A stretch of 40,334 bases of DNA from a virus. Position 1 is the first letter of the stretch. The number at the start of each line of letters is the position of its first letter. The DNA is taken from IMG/VR virus record IMGVR_UViG_3300021961_000224, positions 1 through 40,334 of that record; one strand, written 5' to 3'. Made by a program: the position numbers and the translations under genes. Below, piece by piece: positions 1 through 19,936 of this stretch. Under the pieces are notes generated by a model. That model did no database searches. It saw only the letters and a program-made list of their open reading frames with translations, and was not told the DNA's origin.

Positions 1-168
1 GTAGTTATTTACCTCTCTAAGAAGCACTTTCTTATCGTATACTCTACCGTTCTGGTTTTGAGCTCCTGCTCTCTGCATTACTCCCTCTACTTCAAATACA
101 CCCGGTCTTTCCTTAGATTCTCTAAGGATTGACTTAAATGGGGTATATTCTACTAATACGTTTGCCAT
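1..168 (-). CDS. 21: Prohead core protease, T4 gp21-like (partial, N-terminal 56 codons)
   Basis: The gene starts at the ATG at 168 and runs off the left edge, so only 56 codons are visible. The segment GVMQRAGAQNQNGRVYDKKV matches the N-terminal signature of T4-type prohead serine proteases (a G-Q-R-A/N-x-NqNGRvY pattern near residue 30-45). In T4 this enzyme digests the scaffold and trims head and internal proteins after (L/I)-x-E before packaging. Its position after portal and three small head genes agrees with T4 order (20-67-68-21). The upstream gene stops 2 nt before this ATG, so translation is probably coupled. The catalytic residues lie outside the window. Confidence 0.85.
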   Translation of the reverse strand, partial: MANVLVEYTPFKSILRESKERPGVFEVEGVMQRAGAQNQNGRVYDKKVLLREVNNY

Positions 169-4258: not shown

Positions 4259-5833
4259 CTACAGTAACCAAGATATATCCTCTTGGCCATGTGGAGTATC
4301 TATAGTATACGGATTATTTTGCATATTTCCAACTGAATACGCGGCTCCTTGTCTTTGATTTAGGTTTCCCATAGCAGATAAGGATGCTCTTGATAGATCT
4401 ATTCCCTGTTGTCTTAGTCTTAATGCTGTATCTCTGACGTATAGTCCGGTAGCAAAGGCCATTACTAAGTCATCATTATAGCTAGTCTGTGCTTGTGCTT
4501 TACCGTTCTTCCATACAAATACTCTCATCTCTTTTAAGAGTCTCTGAGATTTAATGGTTACAGATCTTTCTCTTACGTAGTCCATCATCTTAGCAATAAC
4601 TAAAGGACGAGTACGCATAGACATTGTAAAGCCAGGAACTAAGTTTCCTCGTTCCATCTTATTCATATAAGTCTCTACAGTATCTTGCTCTGATCTTGAT
4701 GAGTAGTAAAGGTTAGGGTACTCTCTTTCAATAATCTGTTCGATAGTAGACCATCCGATGTTAGCATTTTCTACTACTAACATTGCATTGTTATACTCAG
4801 TCGCTACTCCTACCAACATGTTACCAAATTCCTTAGGAGGTACTTTGCTTTTAAATTCTGCTACTTGAGTAGCTGCTTCAACATCGAATATGTGAAAGGT
4901 AGAATAGTCCTGTCCGTCACCTCTAGCGACGTCGGCTACAACCATATAGGACTTCATATAATCTGGGTATTCCCATATCCAGTAGTCACCTGATACACCT
5001 CTTTTCTCTAGAGGGTCTTGCTGTGCTGTAGTTTCATAGAAGATTAGATCTTCTGGTTCAAATACTGTATCACCGGATGATAAGAAGTCACAGTCACATT
5101 CCTGTGCTGCCATTCTAGGACCCAGGTCATTGTCTTGTTGGTCTCTCCATGACTGATTTCTCTCAGGGTGCACAGTCCAAGGTAGTTTAATAGGAACAAA
5201 GGAGTTTTCACCTGTTTCTGCTTTTTCCCAGGTCTGGTGGAACCAGTTACCAATTCCGTTAGGAGTTGATAGAGCCATACATTGACCACCGGTTGCAAGG
5301 GTCTGTTGAGCGGCTGCAAACGTTTCATCAATATTATCAATGAACGCAGCCTCATCAATTAAGAGTAAAGATACAGCTTCTGAACGAGCAGCATCTGAGT
5401 TAGATGATTTAGCTGCTATTCTAGAGCCGTTAGTAAGTCTTAGTGAGAGTTTATTCTTCTCTACTGCTTTTAATTTTAACCAGCTAGGAAGCTGATCGTA
5501 CATAAATTGAACCTTGGTTACAAGGTTACGTGCAGTAGATTGTGTGGTTGCAAGAGCTAGTACGTTCTTGTCTTTGTGGAAGAGCATCAACCATAATGAA
5601 TAGCCTGCTGCTAAAGTTGAGATACCTAACTGCCTTGACTTAAGAGTAATTAGGTACTGATGATCTCTGAATAAATAAAGTACTTTGTCCTGGAATGGGT
5701 AAAGGTTGAATAGTATACGTCCTCTTTGAGGGTGCTGAATATAGCAGTACTTACGCATAAAATATGCCGGGTCTTTGGCACACTTTGCGTATTCTTGTAT
5801 TACTATCTGCTTAACATTCTGCTGTTCACTCAT
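4259..5833 (-). CDS. 17: Terminase large subunit, T4 gp17-like (524 aa)
   Basis: DNA-packaging motor ATPase and nuclease. Visible in order: adenine-binding region YPFQDKVL (about 45-52), Walker A-like SRQLGIST (66-73), Walker B LLLIDEAAF (about 157-164), coupling motif ALSTPNG (187-193), and the RNase H-like nuclease starting at VVADVARGDGQDYS (D301) and continuing with LVVENANIGW and a final YNDDLVMAFA. The length is somewhat shorter than T4 gp17 (610 aa). Its ATG overlaps the stop of the upstream small membrane-protein gene as ATGA. No small terminase is recognisable in the window. Confidence 0.95.
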   Translation of the reverse strand: MSEQQNVKQIVIQEYAKCAKDPAYFMRKYCYIQHPQRGRILFNLYPFQDKVLYLFRDHQYLITLKSRQLGISTLAAGYSLWLMLFHKDKNVLALATTQSTARNLVTKVQFMYDQLPSWLKLKAVEKNKLSLRLTNGSRIAAKSSNSDAARSEAVSLLLIDEAAFIDNIDETFAAAQQTLATGGQCMALSTPNGIGNWFHQTWEKAETGENSFVPIKLPWTVHPERNQSWRDQQDNDLGPRMAAQECDCDFLSSGDTVFEPEDLIFYETTAQQDPLEKRGVSGDYWIWEYPDYMKSYMVVADVARGDGQDYSTFHIFDVEAATQVAEFKSKVPPKEFGNMLVGVATEYNNAMLVVENANIGWSTIEQIIEREYPNLYYSSRSEQDTVETYMNKMERGNLVPGFTMSMRTRPLVIAKMMDYVRERSVTIKSQRLLKEMRVFVWKNGKAQAQTSYNDDLVMAFATGLYVRDTALRLRQQGIDLSRASLSAMGNLNQRQGAAYSVGNMQNNPYTIDTPHGQEDISWLL

Positions 5834-6249
5834 AATAATAGTAGTAGTACTGTTGCTAGAGCGCCTCCAGCTGCCCCGAAGGTAACACCTGACCAGAATT
5901 TAGACTTTTTTTCTTTTTCTAACACATCTACTTTTTTATCACATAAATCAATCTGTTTTTCTTTTTCAGCAAAAAGGTTATCGTAGCTGTTTAGTCTCTG
6001 TTGTAGGTTGTTGATCTGAGTTTTATTGGTTTCGGTAAGCTTTTTATAATCTTCAATGCTCTTTTCTAAGCTAGTTTTTTCTTTAATACAAAAGTCACCA
6101 GCTTCTAAATCAGCAATAACCAGCCTGGTCATGTGAGCAGGAAGACATACTAGGGTATCTCCGTTAACGACCGTAACGCTTTGCGAAGTAGCCGGGAAGG
6201 CTATCAACAGAAAGCCTGCTAAGCTCAGCAATTTTTTTATTGTATGCAT
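5830..6249 (-). CDS. Secreted coiled-coil protein with C-terminal anchor; possible outer spanin partner (139 aa)
   Basis: Residues 1-23 form a signal peptide (hydrophobic core LLSLAGFLLIAFPATSQ) with likely cleavage before Q, a pattern common in Bacteroidota. A long coiled coil follows (about 55-115), then GVTFGAAGGALATVLLLLL, a C-terminal membrane anchor. The gene begins inside the 3' end of the preceding membrane coiled-coil gene (86-nt overlap in another frame), as in Rz/Rz1 spanin pairs. No lipobox Cys is evident near the signal cleavage site, so it is not a classic Rz1 lipoprotein. The function assignment is inference. Confidence 0.55.
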   Translation of the reverse strand: MHTIKKLLSLAGFLLIAFPATSQSVTVVNGDTLVCLPAHMTRLVIADLEAGDFCIKEKTSLEKSIEDYKKLTETNKTQINNLQQRLNSYDNLFAEKEKQIDLCDKKVDVLEKEKKSKFWSGVTFGAAGGALATVLLLLL

Positions 6250-6505
6250 CTCTTTCTCTTTTACGTTTTGCTTCCTCGATATCTAAAGCGTTCTCAATAG
6301 AATCAGCCTGTGCTTGTAGTAAGCCGGCTGCAAAAGCTAATGAGTCAATACGTTTAACTAATTCTAACTCTCTAGCCTCGCTAGCTTTCTTCTGGTCATC
6401 TAGTTCCTGTAGATAAGCTGCTTTGTACGGGTTATACAATCCCGTAGCATACATTGCTGCAATAATAATGGCAATGAGGGCTATTAAGTACGGTAGTTTA
6501 TTCAT
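6164..6505 (-). CDS. Inner-membrane coiled-coil protein, i-spanin (Rz)-like (113 aa)
   Basis: The N-terminal transmembrane helix (PYLIALIAIIIAAMYATGLY, residues 5-24) is followed by a charged coiled coil to about residue 95, ending in SLPGYFAKRYGR. This matches the Rz-like layout: N-in anchor and periplasmic coiled coil. The next gene starts within its last 86 nt. The pair sits between the 394-aa gene and terminase. A TATTTATA element lies 8 nt before the ATG. The spanin role is inferred from topology and gene overlap, not from sequence family. Confidence 0.55.
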   Translation of the reverse strand: MNKLPYLIALIAIIIAAMYATGLYNPYKAAYLQELDDQKKASEARELELVKRIDSLAFAAGLLQAQADSIENALDIEEAKRKRERDAYNKKIAELSRLSVDSLPGYFAKRYGR

Positions 6506-10884: not shown

Positions 10885-11715
10885 TTAGAACTTAAATGCT
10901 TTCTTTATTTTCTTACCAGTATTTTTAGCACCACCAACTGCTGCGTTACCAACATCTTTAGCTCCACCCACAACTGCGTTACCCGCGTTGTTTACAGGTT
11001 CTGATACTTTATCTACTACCTTAGTAGTTTCTTTAGCTACTGTGTTTGCTGTATCAACGACTGCTTCTTGAGCTGGTTTAGTGTCAACGCTAACTGAAGC
11101 ATCTACATCAACCCCGGCTAATAAGGCAACTTTACCATCTACTCCAACGGTTGCAACACCATCATCCATAGTAGCGCCTCCGCCTACTTCAGCTCCGGCT
11201 TGTACTCCGATTGATACTCCAGCACCAACTTCAGCACCATTACCATTTTCATCGTATGTGCTATTAGATGCGCCTACTCCTACTGATGCTCCAGCCATTG
11301 CTCCTGCATGTCCTTCTGCACCATCCATTCCTACTTGTCCACTTGCACCAACATATGCTTTAGCTTCTGCTCCAGCATGTACTTCGGTTGTGTTAGTTAC
11401 TCCACCGTACTCTACTGAGTTAGATGCTCCTACTTCAGCTGATGCTCCTACTTCTGCATGTGCATCAACATATGCGTTTCTACCATCCCAACCAGCTTCA
11501 GTTGTTGCTTCAGCATGAGCTTCAGCTTCAGCATGAGCTTCTTGTGAAATGGTTACATCACCAATTTGGTTTGTATTTTCTACTCCAGCATGTACTTCTG
11601 CACTTGCTTCTACACCAGCACTTACTGATGTGTTTGTAACTTCAGTACCAGCAGATGCTCCTGCTGATGCTCCGGCGTTATCGTTACCTACCGATTTGTT
11701 TACTTCTTCACTCAT
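10885..11715 (-). CDS. Ala/Gly/Val-rich repetitive protein (276 aa)
   Basis: Low-complexity protein built of degenerate repeats such as EVHAGAEAKAYVGASGQVG, AEVGASAEVGASNS, AHAEAEAHAEA and AGVSIGVQAGAEVGGG across residues 10-205. A more polar Val/Asp/Thr segment follows, then two copies of a VGGAKxxGNA unit and a basic end KKIKKAFKF. There is no signal peptide or membrane helix. The alternating small residues suggest a beta-solenoid or fibrous structure. It lies between a single-domain tail-collar gene and a cupin-like gene. It could be a fibre or internal filler protein. Codon use looks like its neighbours. Confidence 0.6.
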   Translation of the reverse strand: MSEEVNKSVGNDNAGASAGASAGTEVTNTSVSAGVEASAEVHAGVENTNQIGDVTISQEAHAEAEAHAEATTEAGWDGRNAYVDAHAEVGASAEVGASNSVEYGGVTNTTEVHAGAEAKAYVGASGQVGMDGAEGHAGAMAGASVGVGASNSTYDENGNGAEVGAGVSIGVQAGAEVGGGATMDDGVATVGVDGKVALLAGVDVDASVSVDTKPAQEAVVDTANTVAKETTKVVDKVSEPVNNAGNAVVGGAKDVGNAAVGGAKNTGKKIKKAFKF

Positions 11716-12226: not shown

Positions 12227-13549
12227 TTACCAGTATCCTCCAAAGCTTGATTTGAGGCCTAGTAAGCTTGCATAACGAGGAAGTCTGCATGACCAATAAC
12301 CTGCTTTAGTCTTATCCTTTTTAGTAGGACAGTTATGTCTATCTGAGAAGGCTTTACGAGCTTTAGCGTTGTTGATCTTAGCTGTCAGTCCGCCTTTAGC
12401 GTCACCAAAGTTAACTACGATTACATTACCCTTAGCGTTCTTAGTGTATACCTTATATTTTTTAGGGCCTGGGCTTCTCATTGGTTTATTGAGTTTTACC
12501 TCTTTACCTTTGTATTTAGCTTCATCTAGTTTACCGGCTTGTAAAGTAGTAAACCCGTTACGCTTTAGCCATTTAGCTGCTTCTTCAGCATTAGGTGCCT
12601 CTCCATCGTAATCACCAGTGTCAAAATAAAAACCACCATCAGCAGTTTTGTAAACATCTACGTCACCTTCAGGTCCGCTATAGATAGCGATATGGGCAGG
12701 AGAGTTAAATGTTGCTTCTTCTACTCTTTTACCGTAAGCATACTTAACTCCAGTAGCTTTTGGTTGCTCTAATCTCTTAATAAGGTCATCAACGATTCGC
12801 TCTAGATGTTTGGTAGATCCTGCTCCTTGAGCTGCTTTTTTAATCTTCATGATTAAAGCTTGCTTTTCGAAGTCTTTTAACCCAGCCTCATCAATCATCG
12901 TAAGAATCTCTTGTAGAGGTGTATCTTGAGCTTCACCTGTAATATCTACTACCCACATGTCCGGGTCTGGATCTTCTGGTAGAATGGAAGCTAGTACATC
13001 AGCGCCAGCAATAAGCTTATAACTTACTTGATTACCGTTCATATACTTTAATGCTGTTGGCATTTGAACTTGATCAGTATCTGAGAATGTTGTAGTGCCT
13101 TGGGGTAGCTCACCTAGGAATGACTTAATATCCGAGTATTTAGTTTGGTATCCTAATCCTCCAGCTGCTTTAGCTTTACCTGCTAAATCCATCCATCTCT
13201 CTTCACCCATCTTCATTACTAGAGGTTCTTGTGAGGCTTCTCTCCAGGAGGTAGCCGGTGAAGGAATTACCATTGCAATCTCATTTAGCAGCGGGAAGTC
13301 TAAAGGCACTATTTGACCGTTATACTCTCCATATGTACCTACTTCTGTTTCAAATAGGAGCTCCATGTCTTCCAAGCATAAATCAGTGAGCATGCCTTCG
13401 TTCATTAAAAGACGAGCCTGATTGATGGTTTTGAAGTATTCTTCTGAACCTGGGCGGAATACGTTTTTATATAGAGGAGTCCTGGTCTCTAGGTGATATT
13501 TGAGACCTTCTGTTAGTACTCCGGTAAGCTTAGATTCTGTTAGAAGCAT
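12227..13549 (-). CDS. Conserved phage protein with targeting-like leader and C-terminal Cys/His domain (440 aa)
   Basis: It starts MLLTESKLTGVLTEG, with a candidate cleavage after LTE (residue 14). Residues about 20-90 (VFRPGSEEYFKTINQARLLM, then LETEVGTYGEYNGQIVPLDF in outline) look like a conserved structural module. The last 90 residues form a second module: KGKEVKLNKP, VVNFGDAKGG, ARKAFSDRHNCPTKK, GYWSCRLPRY. The RHxC...YWSCR spacing may bind metal. Both modules are familiar from environmental T4-like phages without known function. TATTTATA lies 11 nt upstream, so it may start a late transcript. Confidence 0.55.
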   Translation of the reverse strand: MLLTESKLTGVLTEGLKYHLETRTPLYKNVFRPGSEEYFKTINQARLLMNEGMLTDLCLEDMELLFETEVGTYGEYNGQIVPLDFPLLNEIAMVIPSPATSWREASQEPLVMKMGEERWMDLAGKAKAAGGLGYQTKYSDIKSFLGELPQGTTTFSDTDQVQMPTALKYMNGNQVSYKLIAGADVLASILPEDPDPDMWVVDITGEAQDTPLQEILTMIDEAGLKDFEKQALIMKIKKAAQGAGSTKHLERIVDDLIKRLEQPKATGVKYAYGKRVEEATFNSPAHIAIYSGPEGDVDVYKTADGGFYFDTGDYDGEAPNAEEAAKWLKRNGFTTLQAGKLDEAKYKGKEVKLNKPMRSPGPKKYKVYTKNAKGNVIVVNFGDAKGGLTAKINNAKARKAFSDRHNCPTKKDKTKAGYWSCRLPRYASLLGLKSSFGGYW

Positions 13550-13569: not shown

Positions 13570-14139
13570 CTATTCCATGTGCTCCTTAAGATGCTTTAGG
13601 TAGTCTGCCATTCCTTTAAGTAGTTTCTGGTTCTGATTGTCATTACTGTTCCAGTCTTCCATTACTCCGTCTTCGGTAACAAACGACATAGATTCATTAA
13701 TCTGATCTTGTACCCATTGTTCTAATCCTGCTGCCCAGGCTTGCATATTTCCTTGCATCATCTGCTTTTCATACTGCTCATACAAGCCAGCCTTGCGTAG
13801 GTTAGCTTCCATATCTACTACGCAATCAAAGCACATTTTATGTATTTTGTACATCTTTTGAGCTAGATGGTGCTTCATTGATCCAGCACATTGTGGGCAA
13901 GTTAGAGGAGTTTGAGCAGCTTTCTTAGCGGCATCTAACTTAGTTATATTTTGTTTAACACCGTTCTTGATAGTCCACGTTCTACCATCTTCTTCCCAGA
14001 TATCGCCTTCGCTATGCTTCTCTCTCTTTTTCTCATAACCTGTTCCAGTTACGGTACGAGAGGTGTAATCCTTATTTACAAGGTTTCTAACTCGGTTTAC
14101 TGCTTTAGAATCAAATTCCTTCTTCAGTTGACTTTCCAT
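13570..14139 (-). CDS. Zinc-ribbon-like conserved phage protein (189 aa)
   Basis: The N-terminal basic segment KAVNRVRNLVNKDYTSRT is followed by SEGDIWEEDGRTWTIKNGVK (43-62) and two CxxC knuckles, CPQC (81-84) and CFDC (103-106), forming a likely zinc-binding site. The C-terminal half is helical and acidic. The product is probably a nucleic-acid-binding or structural accessory protein. It overlaps the HAD gene by 29 nt. There is no enzyme signature. Confidence 0.6.
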   Translation of the reverse strand: MESQLKKEFDSKAVNRVRNLVNKDYTSRTVTGTGYEKKREKHSEGDIWEEDGRTWTIKNGVKQNITKLDAAKKAAQTPLTCPQCAGSMKHHLAQKMYKIHKMCFDCVVDMEANLRKAGLYEQYEKQMMQGNMQAWAAGLEQWVQDQINESMSFVTEDGVMEDWNSNDNQNQKLLKGMADYLKHLKEHME

Positions 14140-14740
14140 ATAACTTTTTTATTCTTTTTATAACTTCCGATGGATCTCCGTTCTTAGGGTGGTGAATACC
14201 AATTCCGCCTGCATCCTGCCAGCGGTCAATAATATCTCTTCTATCGTCAATTAAGATAGGTTCTAATCCTTTTGATACGTCTTCTTCTGCTACTTGTTGC
14301 TTGTAGGATGAATACTTAAATATAATACCTTGCGGTGAAGGAGTCAAATGTGATTTAACCCAAGATCTTTTACCGATTCTTGAGATCATATTTCTGGATG
14401 GAGACGTAAGTAGGGTTGGTTTATATTCGCTAATTACATTCCATAATTGTTGACCTCCTGGTGTGAATTCCATTTCTGCCCAGAACTTCTTGCCGCAAAT
14501 CTCATCAATAAACTTCCAAAATTCAGGTCCTCCAAACTTAGATTCAAACTCACTAGGGGTATTAATGCCCTCTAGTTCTTCGGTTCTATAGTGCTTTCCG
14601 CCGTAGTTACTGTCGTTGAGAAGCTTCATAAACTGCTGATCAAAGTCACAAAGGACTCCGTCCATATCGCAGTATAGCTTAAATTTAACAGTGGGGTTCT
14701 GCTCTTCTTCTGTAAGTAGTAAATCTGCTAACTTTCCCAT
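14111..14740 (-). CDS. HAD-family phosphatase, 5'(3')-nucleotidase-like, with targeting-like leader (209 aa)
   Basis: The ATG at 14740 is chosen over the upstream one at 14791 because it follows the previous stop by 2 nt and gives MGKLADLLLTEEEQ, a leader with an LTE site like other genes here. HAD motifs are clear: motif I YCDMDGVLCDFD (D25, D27), motif II LLTSPS (about 111-115), a Lys in KYSSYKQQ, and motif III PILIDDRRD (D165, D166). This is the layout of small deoxyribonucleotidases that dephosphorylate nucleotides. The phosphatase call is firm; the substrate is inferred. Confidence 0.8.
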   Translation of the reverse strand: MGKLADLLLTEEEQNPTVKFKLYCDMDGVLCDFDQQFMKLLNDSNYGGKHYRTEELEGINTPSEFESKFGGPEFWKFIDEICGKKFWAEMEFTPGGQQLWNVISEYKPTLLTSPSRNMISRIGKRSWVKSHLTPSPQGIIFKYSSYKQQVAEEDVSKGLEPILIDDRRDIIDRWQDAGGIGIHHPKNGDPSEVIKRIKKLYGKSTEEGI

Positions 14741-14742
14741 TC

Positions 14743-16794
14743 TTATTTTAATTCCGGTATTCCACCTAGTTGCGGTATTCTTGATTTCCACTTGCTATAG
14801 ATCTGCTTACTGTTACCTTGAGTAATAATTCCATCACCTACTAAGTCAGTTAGGTAAGTATCTACAACGTCTTGAAAATCTTTCTTTTCGTATTTTGCCT
14901 TAGCATATAAGCCTTGAATATTAGCATCTACTTCTTTTGGCAGTAGGTAGTATTTGTACCAAATTTCAGGGTTTTTGCGAATCTCTCTTCTTCTAGCTTC
15001 GTCTTTTCTCATCCACTTATCGGGCTTGACCTGGTCACCGCTTTGAGTTAGATGTTCAGTCTCGTGACGGATTAGATCAGTAAGAGTTGGTTGAATGGTT
15101 TGAAGCATATTAGTACCGTCAGCAGGATTAAATGCTAAGAGAATGTCAATCTCTCCTTCGTCGGATCCTGCTTCTCCATCAATATGATACTTACCAGGCT
15201 TTACTTCATCTGTTAAAGCAAACTTAAGAGATACTCCTACCGTAGTTGGTGTACCTTTCTCGCTTTTACTTTCAAATGTACCTAAGTATGCAGTTTGATA
15301 TTCGTTATAGAGCATAGCTCCTAGAGGAGACATTCCATACTTTTCAGCAAACTCTCTATCTTTTTCTGAAGGCTCTCTTTTGGTTTTTACGTTATAACCT
15401 TTAAATTTACCTCCTGATAAAAGTGTGTTGAGAGCAGCATTTACTGCCTTTCTGATATCAACTACTATAGAGCGGTACTTAGTACCTTCTTTAACCGGGT
15501 TGTAGCCTGAACCGTAAGGAGCAGCTTTGCCGTCTTGAGGATTATTAGCTTCAGACATCTTACATCTGTCTTCCCATTGACGGAATAGCATGCTTCCGCC
15601 CATGTGGGCTTCCTGTTCAATCTCTCTTAATACGTCATCTTCTTCAGTATTCTGAGTGGTGAAGACTGGTAAGCGATCTTCTAGGTTTTGCTGGTGATGA
15701 ATGAGCTCATGACAGAAGGAGCGTAGAACATCTTTAGGGTGACGACCTGTTACATAAAGGACAATCTCTTGCGTATCGGGCTGATAATATCCTGTCTTAC
15801 CAAAGAGGTTCGCAGCATTTTCTTCGTCATGTCTGATTTTAATATCAGGGATAGGTACTACTGTCATGCCTTGCTCCATACAGTATTCTAAGATAGAAGC
15901 GATATGAGGAGCAAATTCAAACTGACCTATAGTCTCTTCTGGGAGGAGTCTTTGATTCGGAGTTCCGTCGTAGTTACGTCCGTCTTTTTCTTTATCAAAG
16001 TAAGGTAGAGATACTGAGATGTGATCTCCTCTAAACTCTACATTAAAGTCCGAAGATATAACGTTACGGATTAGTTCAGTGTAGTCCTGCAGGCGCTGTC
16101 TCTCTTTAGATGGGAGTACAGCAATTGGTGCTGCCGGAGAGCCTTTTGTGACTTCTTTAATAGGTCCCATTGGAGCGTTCATCCACTCTTTATCCTCTTC
16201 AGTATAAAAGAAGTTTGCAAATACTTCATCGATGGCATCAGCCATTTTCTTTTCTGGTGTGTTATTCATCGCTTTAGATAGAATATCAAATATATGATCT
16301 TTCTGCTTAACTACCGCAGGAAGATACTTAAAAAATTCTTCTTTATCTCCTGCTAAAAGAGCCTTACGAGCGTTTGTACCGCTCATGCCGCCGTCAGGAG
16401 TTTGAACAACCTTAACCTCTAAATTTGGGTATTTTGCTTGATTCTTTCTGAAGTATGAAGTACGGTCTTGAATATCTCCTAGATCGTCTTCTCTACCTTC
16501 TCTAGCTCCTAAAATCCAAACTACTTGGTCGTCTGGGTTGTTTGAAGCATATGAGTAAATCTCTCCGATAGGTGGTTTAGATGCTTTTACAATCTCAACA
16601 TTACCCGGGAGGTACTTTTGAAATATTTTCCAAACTTCATAAGAAGTATCTTGATCAATACCATCTCTTACTTCTTTACCTACGAATACAATGTATTTGT
16701 CCGCATCAGGAACTTGGTTGGTAGCTGTTTCAACTACTAGAAAATGTCCTGCGGTTGGTGGTTTAAATCCTCCTCCAAATACTGCTACTTTCAT
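14743..16794 (-). CDS. Nucleotidyltransferase fused to two HExxH metallopeptidase-like domains (683 aa)
   Basis: Residues 1-170 form an NMNAT/cytidylyltransferase-like domain: VAVFGGGFKPPTAGHF carries the (H/T)xGH motif and GMSGTNARKAL the SxTxxR motif. Such enzymes transfer AMP or CMP to nucleotide-like substrates. Residues about 235-412 contain LRSFCHELIHHQQNLEDRL (HELIH 362-366) with EIEQEAH (391-397) downstream as a possible third ligand. Residues about 440-683 contain LTDLIRHETEHLTQSGD (HETEH 577-581) with LPKEVDANIQG (E621) downstream. Both look like zincin active sites. It is coupled by ATGA to the kinase gene. The fusion is unusual and the combined function is unknown. Confidence 0.75.
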   Translation of the reverse strand: MKVAVFGGGFKPPTAGHFLVVETATNQVPDADKYIVFVGKEVRDGIDQDTSYEVWKIFQKYLPGNVEIVKASKPPIGEIYSYASNNPDDQVVWILGAREGREDDLGDIQDRTSYFRKNQAKYPNLEVKVVQTPDGGMSGTNARKALLAGDKEEFFKYLPAVVKQKDHIFDILSKAMNNTPEKKMADAIDEVFANFFYTEEDKEWMNAPMGPIKEVTKGSPAAPIAVLPSKERQRLQDYTELIRNVISSDFNVEFRGDHISVSLPYFDKEKDGRNYDGTPNQRLLPEETIGQFEFAPHIASILEYCMEQGMTVVPIPDIKIRHDEENAANLFGKTGYYQPDTQEIVLYVTGRHPKDVLRSFCHELIHHQQNLEDRLPVFTTQNTEEDDVLREIEQEAHMGGSMLFRQWEDRCKMSEANNPQDGKAAPYGSGYNPVKEGTKYRSIVVDIRKAVNAALNTLLSGGKFKGYNVKTKREPSEKDREFAEKYGMSPLGAMLYNEYQTAYLGTFESKSEKGTPTTVGVSLKFALTDEVKPGKYHIDGEAGSDEGEIDILLAFNPADGTNMLQTIQPTLTDLIRHETEHLTQSGDQVKPDKWMRKDEARRREIRKNPEIWYKYYLLPKEVDANIQGLYAKAKYEKKDFQDVVDTYLTDLVGDGIITQGNSKQIYSKWKSRIPQLGGIPELK

Positions 16795-17729
16795 GCAAAG
16801 AACTTCTTAGTTTTGGAAATTACTTGAGCGTCTGTTGTACCTTTAGTTACTAAGTCGTATTGATCGCTATTGATAACTTTAGCAATTCTATCAAGTACCT
16901 CCTTGTATTTCTTCTCAGCTGAGTCTCTATTGCGTTCAATGGAGGCAACCTTCTTTTTCATTGAGTCAAACGTAGGGCCTTGACCTTTCTTCTCCCAAGT
17001 AGCCATAAAGTGCTTCTTAAGATTCTTAGTCATATCTTCGTCGCTATCGTCTAATCGAAGAGGTTTTACTAGTTCTTCGTAGGCAGCTAAGGCAGCTTCA
17101 TCTTCAATCTCAAAAGGCTTTCTAAACGATGATTTCAGTTCTCCTAGAGAATCAATATACTCTAAAATACCTTCACCACCTCTCTTGGCAGCATGATTAA
17201 ACTTACGAACCTCAGCATCATAAGAGCCTCCCATCATATTAGGTACGATGACGAAATTATCCTTTAAAAGTTTGCTATAATAGCCAATTAATTCAAAGCT
17301 TCTCATCCAAGTATCAAATACTGCAATCTTAGGAATATTACGTTCTCTTTCAAAATTCTTAAGAAGAGAGATGGCCGGGTGAGTGATCATCATAATCATC
17401 ATCACATCGTAACCTTTTGCTCTGATATCGTTTACAGTCTTGTCTGGGTTGTTAGCTGTTGTATCCCATACAAATGGTTCACCTTCGTAAGCATGGTCAG
17501 AAGCTGCTTTATCGGTCATAGACGAAGCCATAGACAGATTACTGTATGCAGGACTCTTTTTATCCTCTACATACTGATCAGGATTAAAGATCGTAATATC
17601 CTCAGGAATAGCACCAGCTCTCTTTAGAGTATTGACCATATGAGTTTTTCCGGTACCAGCACCGCCGGCCATAATCAACGCCTTTGGTCGGGCTTTTGCT
17701 TCAGATAAAAGAGCTTCCATTAATTTCAT
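16791..17729 (-). CDS. P-loop kinase, zeta-toxin-like, with targeting-like leader (312 aa)
   Basis: It starts MKLMEALLSEAKARPKALIM. The first ten residues resemble the T4 Alt leader and end in LSE|A. Walker A GGAGTGKT (22-29) follows directly, with FNPDQY (48-53) and PFVWDTTANN (85-94) in the positions seen in zeta-toxin and polynucleotide-kinase-like P-loop enzymes. The C-terminal third is Lys-rich and coiled. The substrate is unknown; nucleotide, nucleic acid or UDP-sugar kinase are options. A TATTTATA element lies within the last codons of the preceding gene, 25 nt before this ATG. Confidence 0.75.
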   Translation of the reverse strand: MKLMEALLSEAKARPKALIMAGGAGTGKTHMVNTLKRAGAIPEDITIFNPDQYVEDKKSPAYSNLSMASSMTDKAASDHAYEGEPFVWDTTANNPDKTVNDIRAKGYDVMMIMMITHPAISLLKNFERERNIPKIAVFDTWMRSFELIGYYSKLLKDNFVIVPNMMGGSYDAEVRKFNHAAKRGGEGILEYIDSLGELKSSFRKPFEIEDEAALAAYEELVKPLRLDDSDEDMTKNLKKHFMATWEKKGQGPTFDSMKKKVASIERNRDSAEKKYKEVLDRIAKVINSDQYDLVTKGTTDAQVISKTKKFFA

Positions 17730-19456: not shown

Positions 19457-19485
19457 AATATACGAATATTATTTCTTATCTCCAA
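19457..19485 (-). promoter_or_regulatory. Sigma70-like promoter before primase (TTGGAG-17-TATATT)
   Basis: On the coding strand AGTTGGAG is followed, 17 nt after TTGGAG, by TATATT, itself preceded by TTCG. The -35 lies in the last codons of the GIY-YIG gene and the -10 in the 37-nt gap. Three other sites in the window share AGTTG, 17-nt spacing, TTC(T/G) and TATATT. Confidence 0.55.
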
Positions 19486-19936
19486 CTAAAAAGTCCTTTG
19501 TGTAAAACTTACCTAGAATGTTGTCGTTGAAGTACATAGCAGGGTCTTCTAAGACTCCCATTGAAAATAAGTACTTACATTCGTAATAGGTAAGGAGTTT
19601 CTTTCCTGGTGCAAATTCAATAATTTCTTTTGAGAATTCGGTAGCTGGATATATCTTTGTAAGTTTTTGGAATTCTTTATTGGAACCCCAATATTTCTTC
19701 CAATCACTCTCAGTTGTAACAATCTTATGAGTTGGCTTACGACCAGGTCCGGTCTGCTCAGCAATCTCGGCTTTAGTCAAAGGCTTCTTTCTATTATTAT
19801 AGAGTACCTTTTTACCGATATATTTTTTGTTAGATGGAATATGAGTAATCTTATAAATGAAACCAAACGTACCTTCAGGCATGTCTGAGATCTCGGTTAT
19901 AAGCCTACCTTTATATTCCCAGGTAGGTTGTGTCAT
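19469..19936 (-). CDS. GIY-YIG endonuclease, SegE-like (155 aa)
   Basis: The GIY-YIG core is visible as FGFIYKITHIPSNKKYIGKK (24-43), with YKI and YIG elements. Downstream are TESDWKKYWGSN (75-86), FSKEIIEF, and a likely catalytic Glu in LLTYYECKYLF (E119), then NDNILGKF. T4-like phages carry such free-standing homing-type endonucleases. It lies exactly between the fibre genes and the replication genes, as expected of an inserted homing endonuclease. Confidence 0.78.
   Translation of the reverse strand: MTQPTWEYKGRLITEISDMPEGTFGFIYKITHIPSNKKYIGKKVLYNNRKKPLTKAEIAEQTGPGRKPTHKIVTTESDWKKYWGSNKEFQKLTKIYPATEFSKEIIEFAPGKKLLTYYECKYLFSMGVLEDPAMYFNDNILGKFYTKDFLVGDKK

Follow-up and report, generated by a model that had tools for sequence, protein, structure and literature searches.

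A candidate head-packaged polyprotein of a nucleotidyltransferase and two zincin-like domains in a T4-like phage, with predicted prohead-protease sites between its modules

Introduction

In phage T4, the prohead protease gp21 cleaves after L/I-x-E and removes capsid-targeting (CTS) propeptides, which direct cargo (PMC9026906). In the polyvalent proteins, zincin metallopeptidases, for which 12 clades have been described, act as hub domains and have been proposed to process these proteins, while ARTs of the T4 Alt type are absent from genuine polyvalent proteins (Iyer et al., 2017; PMC5512222). The P1 proteins DarA, DarB and DdrB are antirestriction head proteins described as large cargo of the capsid, DarA being believed to be processed (PMC9024508). 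NMNAT-like proteins have been reported in virions of several cyanomyoviruses, including that of cyanophage S-CREM2, which was detected by mass spectrometry through three unique peptides in a study whose authors allowed for contamination (PMC10665884).

The stretch of DNA analysed here (the window; 40,334 nucleotides, IMG/VR virus record IMGVR_UViG_3300021961_000224) belongs to a T4-like myophage carrying terminase, portal and baseplate-type genes, with Flavobacterium phage immuto (NC_055915) as its nearest annotated relative. It encodes a protein that resembles each of these systems in part. As with the T4 internal proteins and Alt, cargo-like proteins in the window phage and its relatives carry a short N-terminal propeptide ending in phi-x-E, and these phages encode a gp21-type protease; however, the T4 proteins are processed at their termini, whereas the predicted sites of the window protein lie between enzyme modules and an N-terminal CTS is missing. 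With the polyvalent proteins it shares the combination of disparate, unrelated enzymatic domains and zincins in one chain, a proposed early delivery and, in some relatives, a pol-beta-like NTase motif, but release by embedded zincins has been proposed for the former, while the junctions of this family match a gp21-type site. The likeness to DarA, DarB and DdrB is one of description, and DarB differs in not being described as a cleaved enzyme polyprotein in PMC9024508. The S-CREM2 protein (gp154) is of the same fold class by motif, comes from a T4-like phage, was detected in virions and begins with an LTE↓A propeptide (MKNFSSFLTE↓A; arrows mark predicted cuts), but it is a single-domain protein of 286 aa without zincins, and the two families are only marginally similar in pairwise comparison. 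Within the segment of S-CREM2 that was examined, virion detection was not in general predicted by a CTS-like N-terminus, and we therefore count only this single homologous protein as evidence. The literature searched, with incomplete coverage, contained no description of gp21-type sites between enzyme modules, nor did we find there a virion proteome of an immuto-like phage.

Results and Discussion

One Reading Frame, Three Predicted Modules

The features of the protein are as follows.

14743..16794, minus strand: polyprotein ORF, 683 aa, ATG start, stop codon at 14743-14745
16261..16794, minus strand: module 1, residues 1-178, NMNAT/cytidylyltransferase-like nucleotidyltransferase (GGGFKPPTAGH, SGTNAR), by Foldseek and PHROG
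16153..16260, minus strand: amphipathic helix (KKMADAIDEVFANFF) and disordered linker, residues 179-214, by model and stand-alone copies
16150..16161, minus strand: predicted prohead-protease site IKE214↓V215
15547..16143, minus strand: module 2 (Z1), residues 218-416, zincin-like domain, by conservation, model and fold matches
15697..15711, minus strand: HELIH of Z1, residues 362-366, conserved 59/59
15610..15618, minus strand: E393-E395, candidate third metal ligand of Z1
15487..15546, minus strand: disordered linker, residues 417-436, pLDDT <50 at 417-435
15484..15495, minus strand: predicted prohead-protease site VKE436↓G437
14746..15486, minus strand: module 3 (Z2), residues 437-683, second zincin-like domain, by conservation, model and fold matches
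15052..15066, minus strand: HETEH of Z2, residues 577-581, H/E/H conserved 51/51
14932..14934, minus strand: E621 (LPKEVDAN), candidate third metal ligand of Z2, conserved 50/50

The frame runs for 683 codons without an internal stop (16794..14743, minus strand). Orthologues in independent IMG/VR contigs and in immuto (gp088, annotated as NMNAT) share both module order and unbroken frame, so that a frameshift or fusion artefact could be ruled out. The original prediction, a single polypeptide combining an NMNAT-type transferase with two separate HExxH domains, was thus borne out: its residue numbers are exact (GGGFKPPTAGH at ~7-17, SGTNAR at ~138-143, HELIH at 362-366, HETEH at 577-581), and the frameshift into separate genes that it had named as fatal is seen neither in the ORF nor in its orthologues. 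An AlphaFold model of the whole protein, built with 62 sequences (mean pLDDT 84, pTM 0.42), comprises three confident blocks, with pLDDT <50 at 207-225 and 417-435; as modelled, the three modules fold independently with disordered linkers between them, and IKE214 and VKE436 both fall inside or at the edge of these linkers.

The Nucleotidyltransferase Module

Foldseek matched module 1 to NadD (8aih, the best match, E 2.2e-5) and CoaD (6b7d) about equally, with a probability of 1.00, and PHROG cytidyltransferase families were reached at E 1.9e-7. The (H/T)xGH-type and S-x-T-x-x-R motifs are both present, as GGGFKPPTAGH and SGTNAR, and GGFKPP, H17, S138, T140 and R143 are invariant in a five-member alignment (A3). 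The Pfam model CTP_transf_like scored 13 bits, short of its curated cut-off of 21 because module 1 is too divergent for it, and a sequence search of PDB chains gave only a weak archaeal NMNAT/NadD match. In the model, module 1 has a Rossmann-like nucleotidyltransferase fold.

Simple NAD salvage was demoted as an explanation, since a nicotinamide phosphoribosyltransferase is not annotated in immuto and the family to which the immuto “NAD synthetase” belongs is one of SegE-like GIY-YIG endonucleases. The latter label (immuto gp100, window 19469-19936; phrog_447) stands against a SegE-type GIY-YIG match with a Pfam E-value of 8.7e-27, and to judge by that match it is probably a spreading misannotation.

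The Two Zincin-like Modules

Both metallopeptidase motifs are strictly kept: H362, E363 and H366 in every aligned copy of Z1, and H577, E578 and H581 in every aligned copy of Z2. In the AlphaFold model each HExxH is part of one helix, and the downstream Glu sits on the next; the candidates E393/E395 in Z1 are mostly conserved among the aligned copies, and E621 in Z2 is kept throughout. The downstream Glu anticipated after each motif is therefore upheld by conservation as well as by helix placement.

A second AlphaFold model, restricted to blocks 2 and 3, gave only weak PDB matches, with IrrE, selecase and BlaR1 among the best (E ~0.046-0.4), while the viral structure library BFVD returned IrrE-like matches at E 2.0e-5 and 3.8e-5 and a SprT-like match at E 1.9e-3. 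The structure prediction and fold search suggested at the outset placed module 1 with NadD/CoaD, and for the zincin modules yielded IrrE/SprT-type matches among viral structures but little from the PDB. Z1 and Z2 reached no Pfam peptidase family, DUF6782 and Peptidase_M91 matching below their curated cut-offs, and searching PDB chains with the whole protein and with the zincin pair returned nothing useful.

Neighbouring Genes and Module Shuffling

Three further cargo-like genes lie close to the polyprotein gene.

16791..17729, minus strand: zeta-toxin-like P-loop kinase, adjoining the polyprotein gene, Pfam Zeta_toxin E 7e-13
14111..14740, minus strand: 5'-nucleotidase (NT5C), adjoining the polyprotein gene, probable true start 14740, N-terminus MGKLADLLLTE↓E
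12227..13549, minus strand: second modular cargo-like protein, MLLTE↓SKLTGVLTE↓G..., sharing a module with an insert in the Z1-Z2 linker of one relative (L021)

The kinase has a capsid-targeting-like N-terminus (MKLMEALLSE↓A, 17700-17729), and a phi-x-E peptide is found at 30/31 distinct kinase and 56/59 nucleotidase N-termini, against a baseline of 22%. Over its last ~80 residues, which bear a KDKTKxGYW motif, the 12227-13549 protein is similar to the end of Melnitz gp18; an NMNAT domain is also present in gp18.

Since immuto was the only annotated phage matched by the zincin modules in tblastn, the breadth of relatives was taken from IMG/VR, where profile scans gave ~160 loci. A module-profile search of their ORFs identified the arrangements NT-NMN-Z1-Z2 (n=21), NMN-Z1-Z2 (n=17) and NT-NMN-Z1 (n=12), stand-alone Z2 (n=38) and Z1 (n=5), as well as other NMN-Z1 forms and permuted forms; NT stands for an N-terminal domain whose pol-beta-type motif, GS...DFGDLD, is the basis of its assignment, no Pfam hit being obtained. 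A comparison of more than 50 relatives shows modules to be shuffled, lost, inserted or encoded alone, with two to seven modules per chain among the relatives. One chain of 1602 aa (L162) fuses NMNAT, Z2, superoxide dismutase, Z1, kinase and nucleotidase, and phi-x-E precedes each of these from Z2 onwards. Linkers are where extra modules enter, as with the RegB-like domain of L010, and portions of other cargo-like genes, among them the 12227-13549 ORF of the window, are homologous to such inserts.

Several of these variants deserve individual mention. The L010 insert (residues ~460-598, between NMNAT and Z1; also in L015, L033 and L034) resembles the T4 RegB endoribonuclease weakly (Pfam E 3.5e-4, below cut-off) and has a homologous counterpart within a separate L080 gene that bears a CTS. 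At L040:5065-8215 the polyprotein is encoded as two genes (NT-NMN and Z1-Z2), with unrelated sequence at the NMNAT-Z1 linker. Fe/Mn superoxide dismutases with the capsid-targeting-like propeptide MIKMSDILLE↓A are encoded at L081:5709-6356 and L149:1943-2599, and the dismutase domain of L162 occupies residues ~600-800; judging from these propeptides, the dismutase is possibly head-packaged.

This pattern bears on whether the protein could be a structural component of the head or neck, in which degenerate enzyme folds serve as architecture or scaffold and are cut in maturation like T4 gp22. The gene does sit among tail, terminase and portal genes, and gp21 also cuts T4 core proteins into pieces (PMC9026906). 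However, catalytic residues conserved in all aligned copies would be unexpected for a pure scaffold, and copy content differs between close relatives; we regard a structural role as very improbable.

Internal Junctions Resemble Propeptides

The motif phi-x-E followed by G, A or S occurs in 18/19 distinct Z1-Z2 linkers (shuffled mean 2.9) and in 20/31 distinct NMNAT-Z1 linkers (shuffled 6.5), or 28/31 (shuffled 10.7) with a wider P1' set, although the motif is short and the P values for this enrichment are optimistic, because linkers share descent and the P3 set (L/I/V/M) was widened after data inspection to fit the capsid protein. The strict T4 form L/I-x-E was not enriched in Z1-Z2 linkers (9/19 vs 6.7 shuffled). 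Stand-alone Z2 genes open with an MKLKxLILE↓GxYD peptide (e.g., MKLKNLILE↓GMYD), and in fused proteins the start of the Z2 domain is preceded by VMAE↓GRYD, LNE↓GRYD or VKE↓GTKYR; similarly, helix 180-193 of the window protein corresponds to the N-terminus of stand-alone module 2 copies (L035, L080). At the level of sequence, then, the internal junctions are equivalent to the N-terminal propeptides of stand-alone modules.

These junctions also speak to a second alternative, an intact multifunctional enzyme of the cytoplasm that combines NAD or nucleotide metabolism with proteolysis and is never packaged, its linkers and LxE motifs being incidental. The annotation of the immuto orthologue, the retention of the NMNAT-Z1-Z2 order in many relatives and the missing N-terminal CTS of the window protein would all fit such an enzyme, but domain order and content vary through loss, splitting, insertion and permutation, and the linker motifs are far above shuffled expectation and coincide with the propeptides of stand-alone genes. 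We therefore consider it improbable. We likewise found no support for a joint action of nucleotide transfer and proteolysis within a single chain, the junction motif pointing to separated modules.

The Prohead Protease as the Likely Cutter

A candidate for the protease lies at the edge of the window.

1..168, minus strand: gp21-like prohead protease (Peptidase S77), gene start, cut by the window edge, partial hit at E 2.5e-4, below the family cut-off

An S77 prohead protease is present in 13/16 related contigs tested; that of immuto is gp070. In immuto and 16 related contigs, the capsid protein has an N-terminus of the form MxLxxLLxE, like the cargo peptides, and V/I-x-E, usually followed by Ala, is found in all 17 of 17 at the expected capsid cleavage position, the site being predicted from that position. 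In immuto, CTS-like N-termini are concentrated in the cargo/head block (12/37, against 9/171 elsewhere; Fisher P 1.7e-5). The window polyprotein has no N-terminal capsid-targeting propeptide and starts directly in the NMNAT fold, so that head targeting would need an internal element, for which helix 180-193 is perhaps a candidate.

Because zincin-free modules and the predicted capsid site share the junction motif, the likely cutter is the gp21-like prohead protease and not the zincins. The opposite case would be a polyvalent effector, injected or made early, whose own HExxH domains cut the linkers, host proteins or both. Zincins have indeed been proposed to process polyvalent proteins (PMC5512222), and the strict conservation of both HExxH motifs suggests that these domains are probably active proteases of something. 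Nevertheless, the junction motif is carried by the zincin-free kinase, nucleotidase and superoxide dismutase and resembles the predicted capsid site, and zincin modules also exist as lone genes; we consider self-processing unlikely, if slightly less so than the cytoplasmic enzyme. The suggestion that the zincins are the processing enzymes was accordingly not supported. What remains of the earlier proposal of a self-processing effector in place of NAD salvage is the effector: a delivered and processed effector is the likelier of the two, since no nicotinamide phosphoribosyltransferase is annotated in immuto and the NMNAT and zincin modules travel with kinase, nucleotidase and other cargo.

A Proposed Cargo Polyprotein

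We suggest, with a probability of roughly three in four, that the product of the ORF is a cargo polyprotein which is packaged into the head and divided there by the gp21-like prohead protease, yielding enzymes that are ejected separately. It would be made late and drawn into the assembling T4-like head, where, as the head matures, the protease would cut after phi-x-E (E214 and E436 in this protein) and so free the NMNAT-like nucleotidyltransferase and both zincin-like domains within the capsid. The freed modules would leave the head along with the DNA and, in the new host, work independently of one another, one gene thus giving several enzymes, and the neighbouring kinase and nucleotidase, with their like propeptides, would be parallel cargo. 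Delivery is suggested by propeptide and junction motifs; packaging, cleavage, ejection and the catalytic activity of the modules we infer.

Beyond this locus, we lean towards a more general scenario, in which T4-like phages of Bacteroidota have a cargo platform of interchangeable enzyme cassettes bounded by prohead-protease sites. Such cassettes (nucleotidyltransferases, zincins, a zeta-like kinase, a nucleotidase, superoxide dismutase, a RegB-like RNase) would occur either singly, behind a targeting propeptide, or joined head-to-tail in chains of up to about seven modules, the polyproteins being packaged as one chain and then cut apart within the capsid. If true, this would be a phage counterpart of the viral polyprotein, providing an enzyme mix of fixed ratio at infection, and the head-targeted internal proteins of T4 would be joined to the polyvalent effectors by a readable rule, the phi-x-E junction. 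With that rule, the genes ejected at infection could be recognised in uncultured T4-like phages, and many “NMNAT” or “NAD salvage” annotations in such phages would become effector cargo.

Other Observations in the Window

Window 10885-11715 encodes a 276-aa protein of low-complexity Ala/Gly/Val/Glu repeats (AGAEAGAEVGAS type), for which no family match was obtained. Beside the terminase gene, two small overlapping ORFs (5830-6249 and 6164-6505) have N-terminal signal or membrane segments and are possibly a spanin pair.
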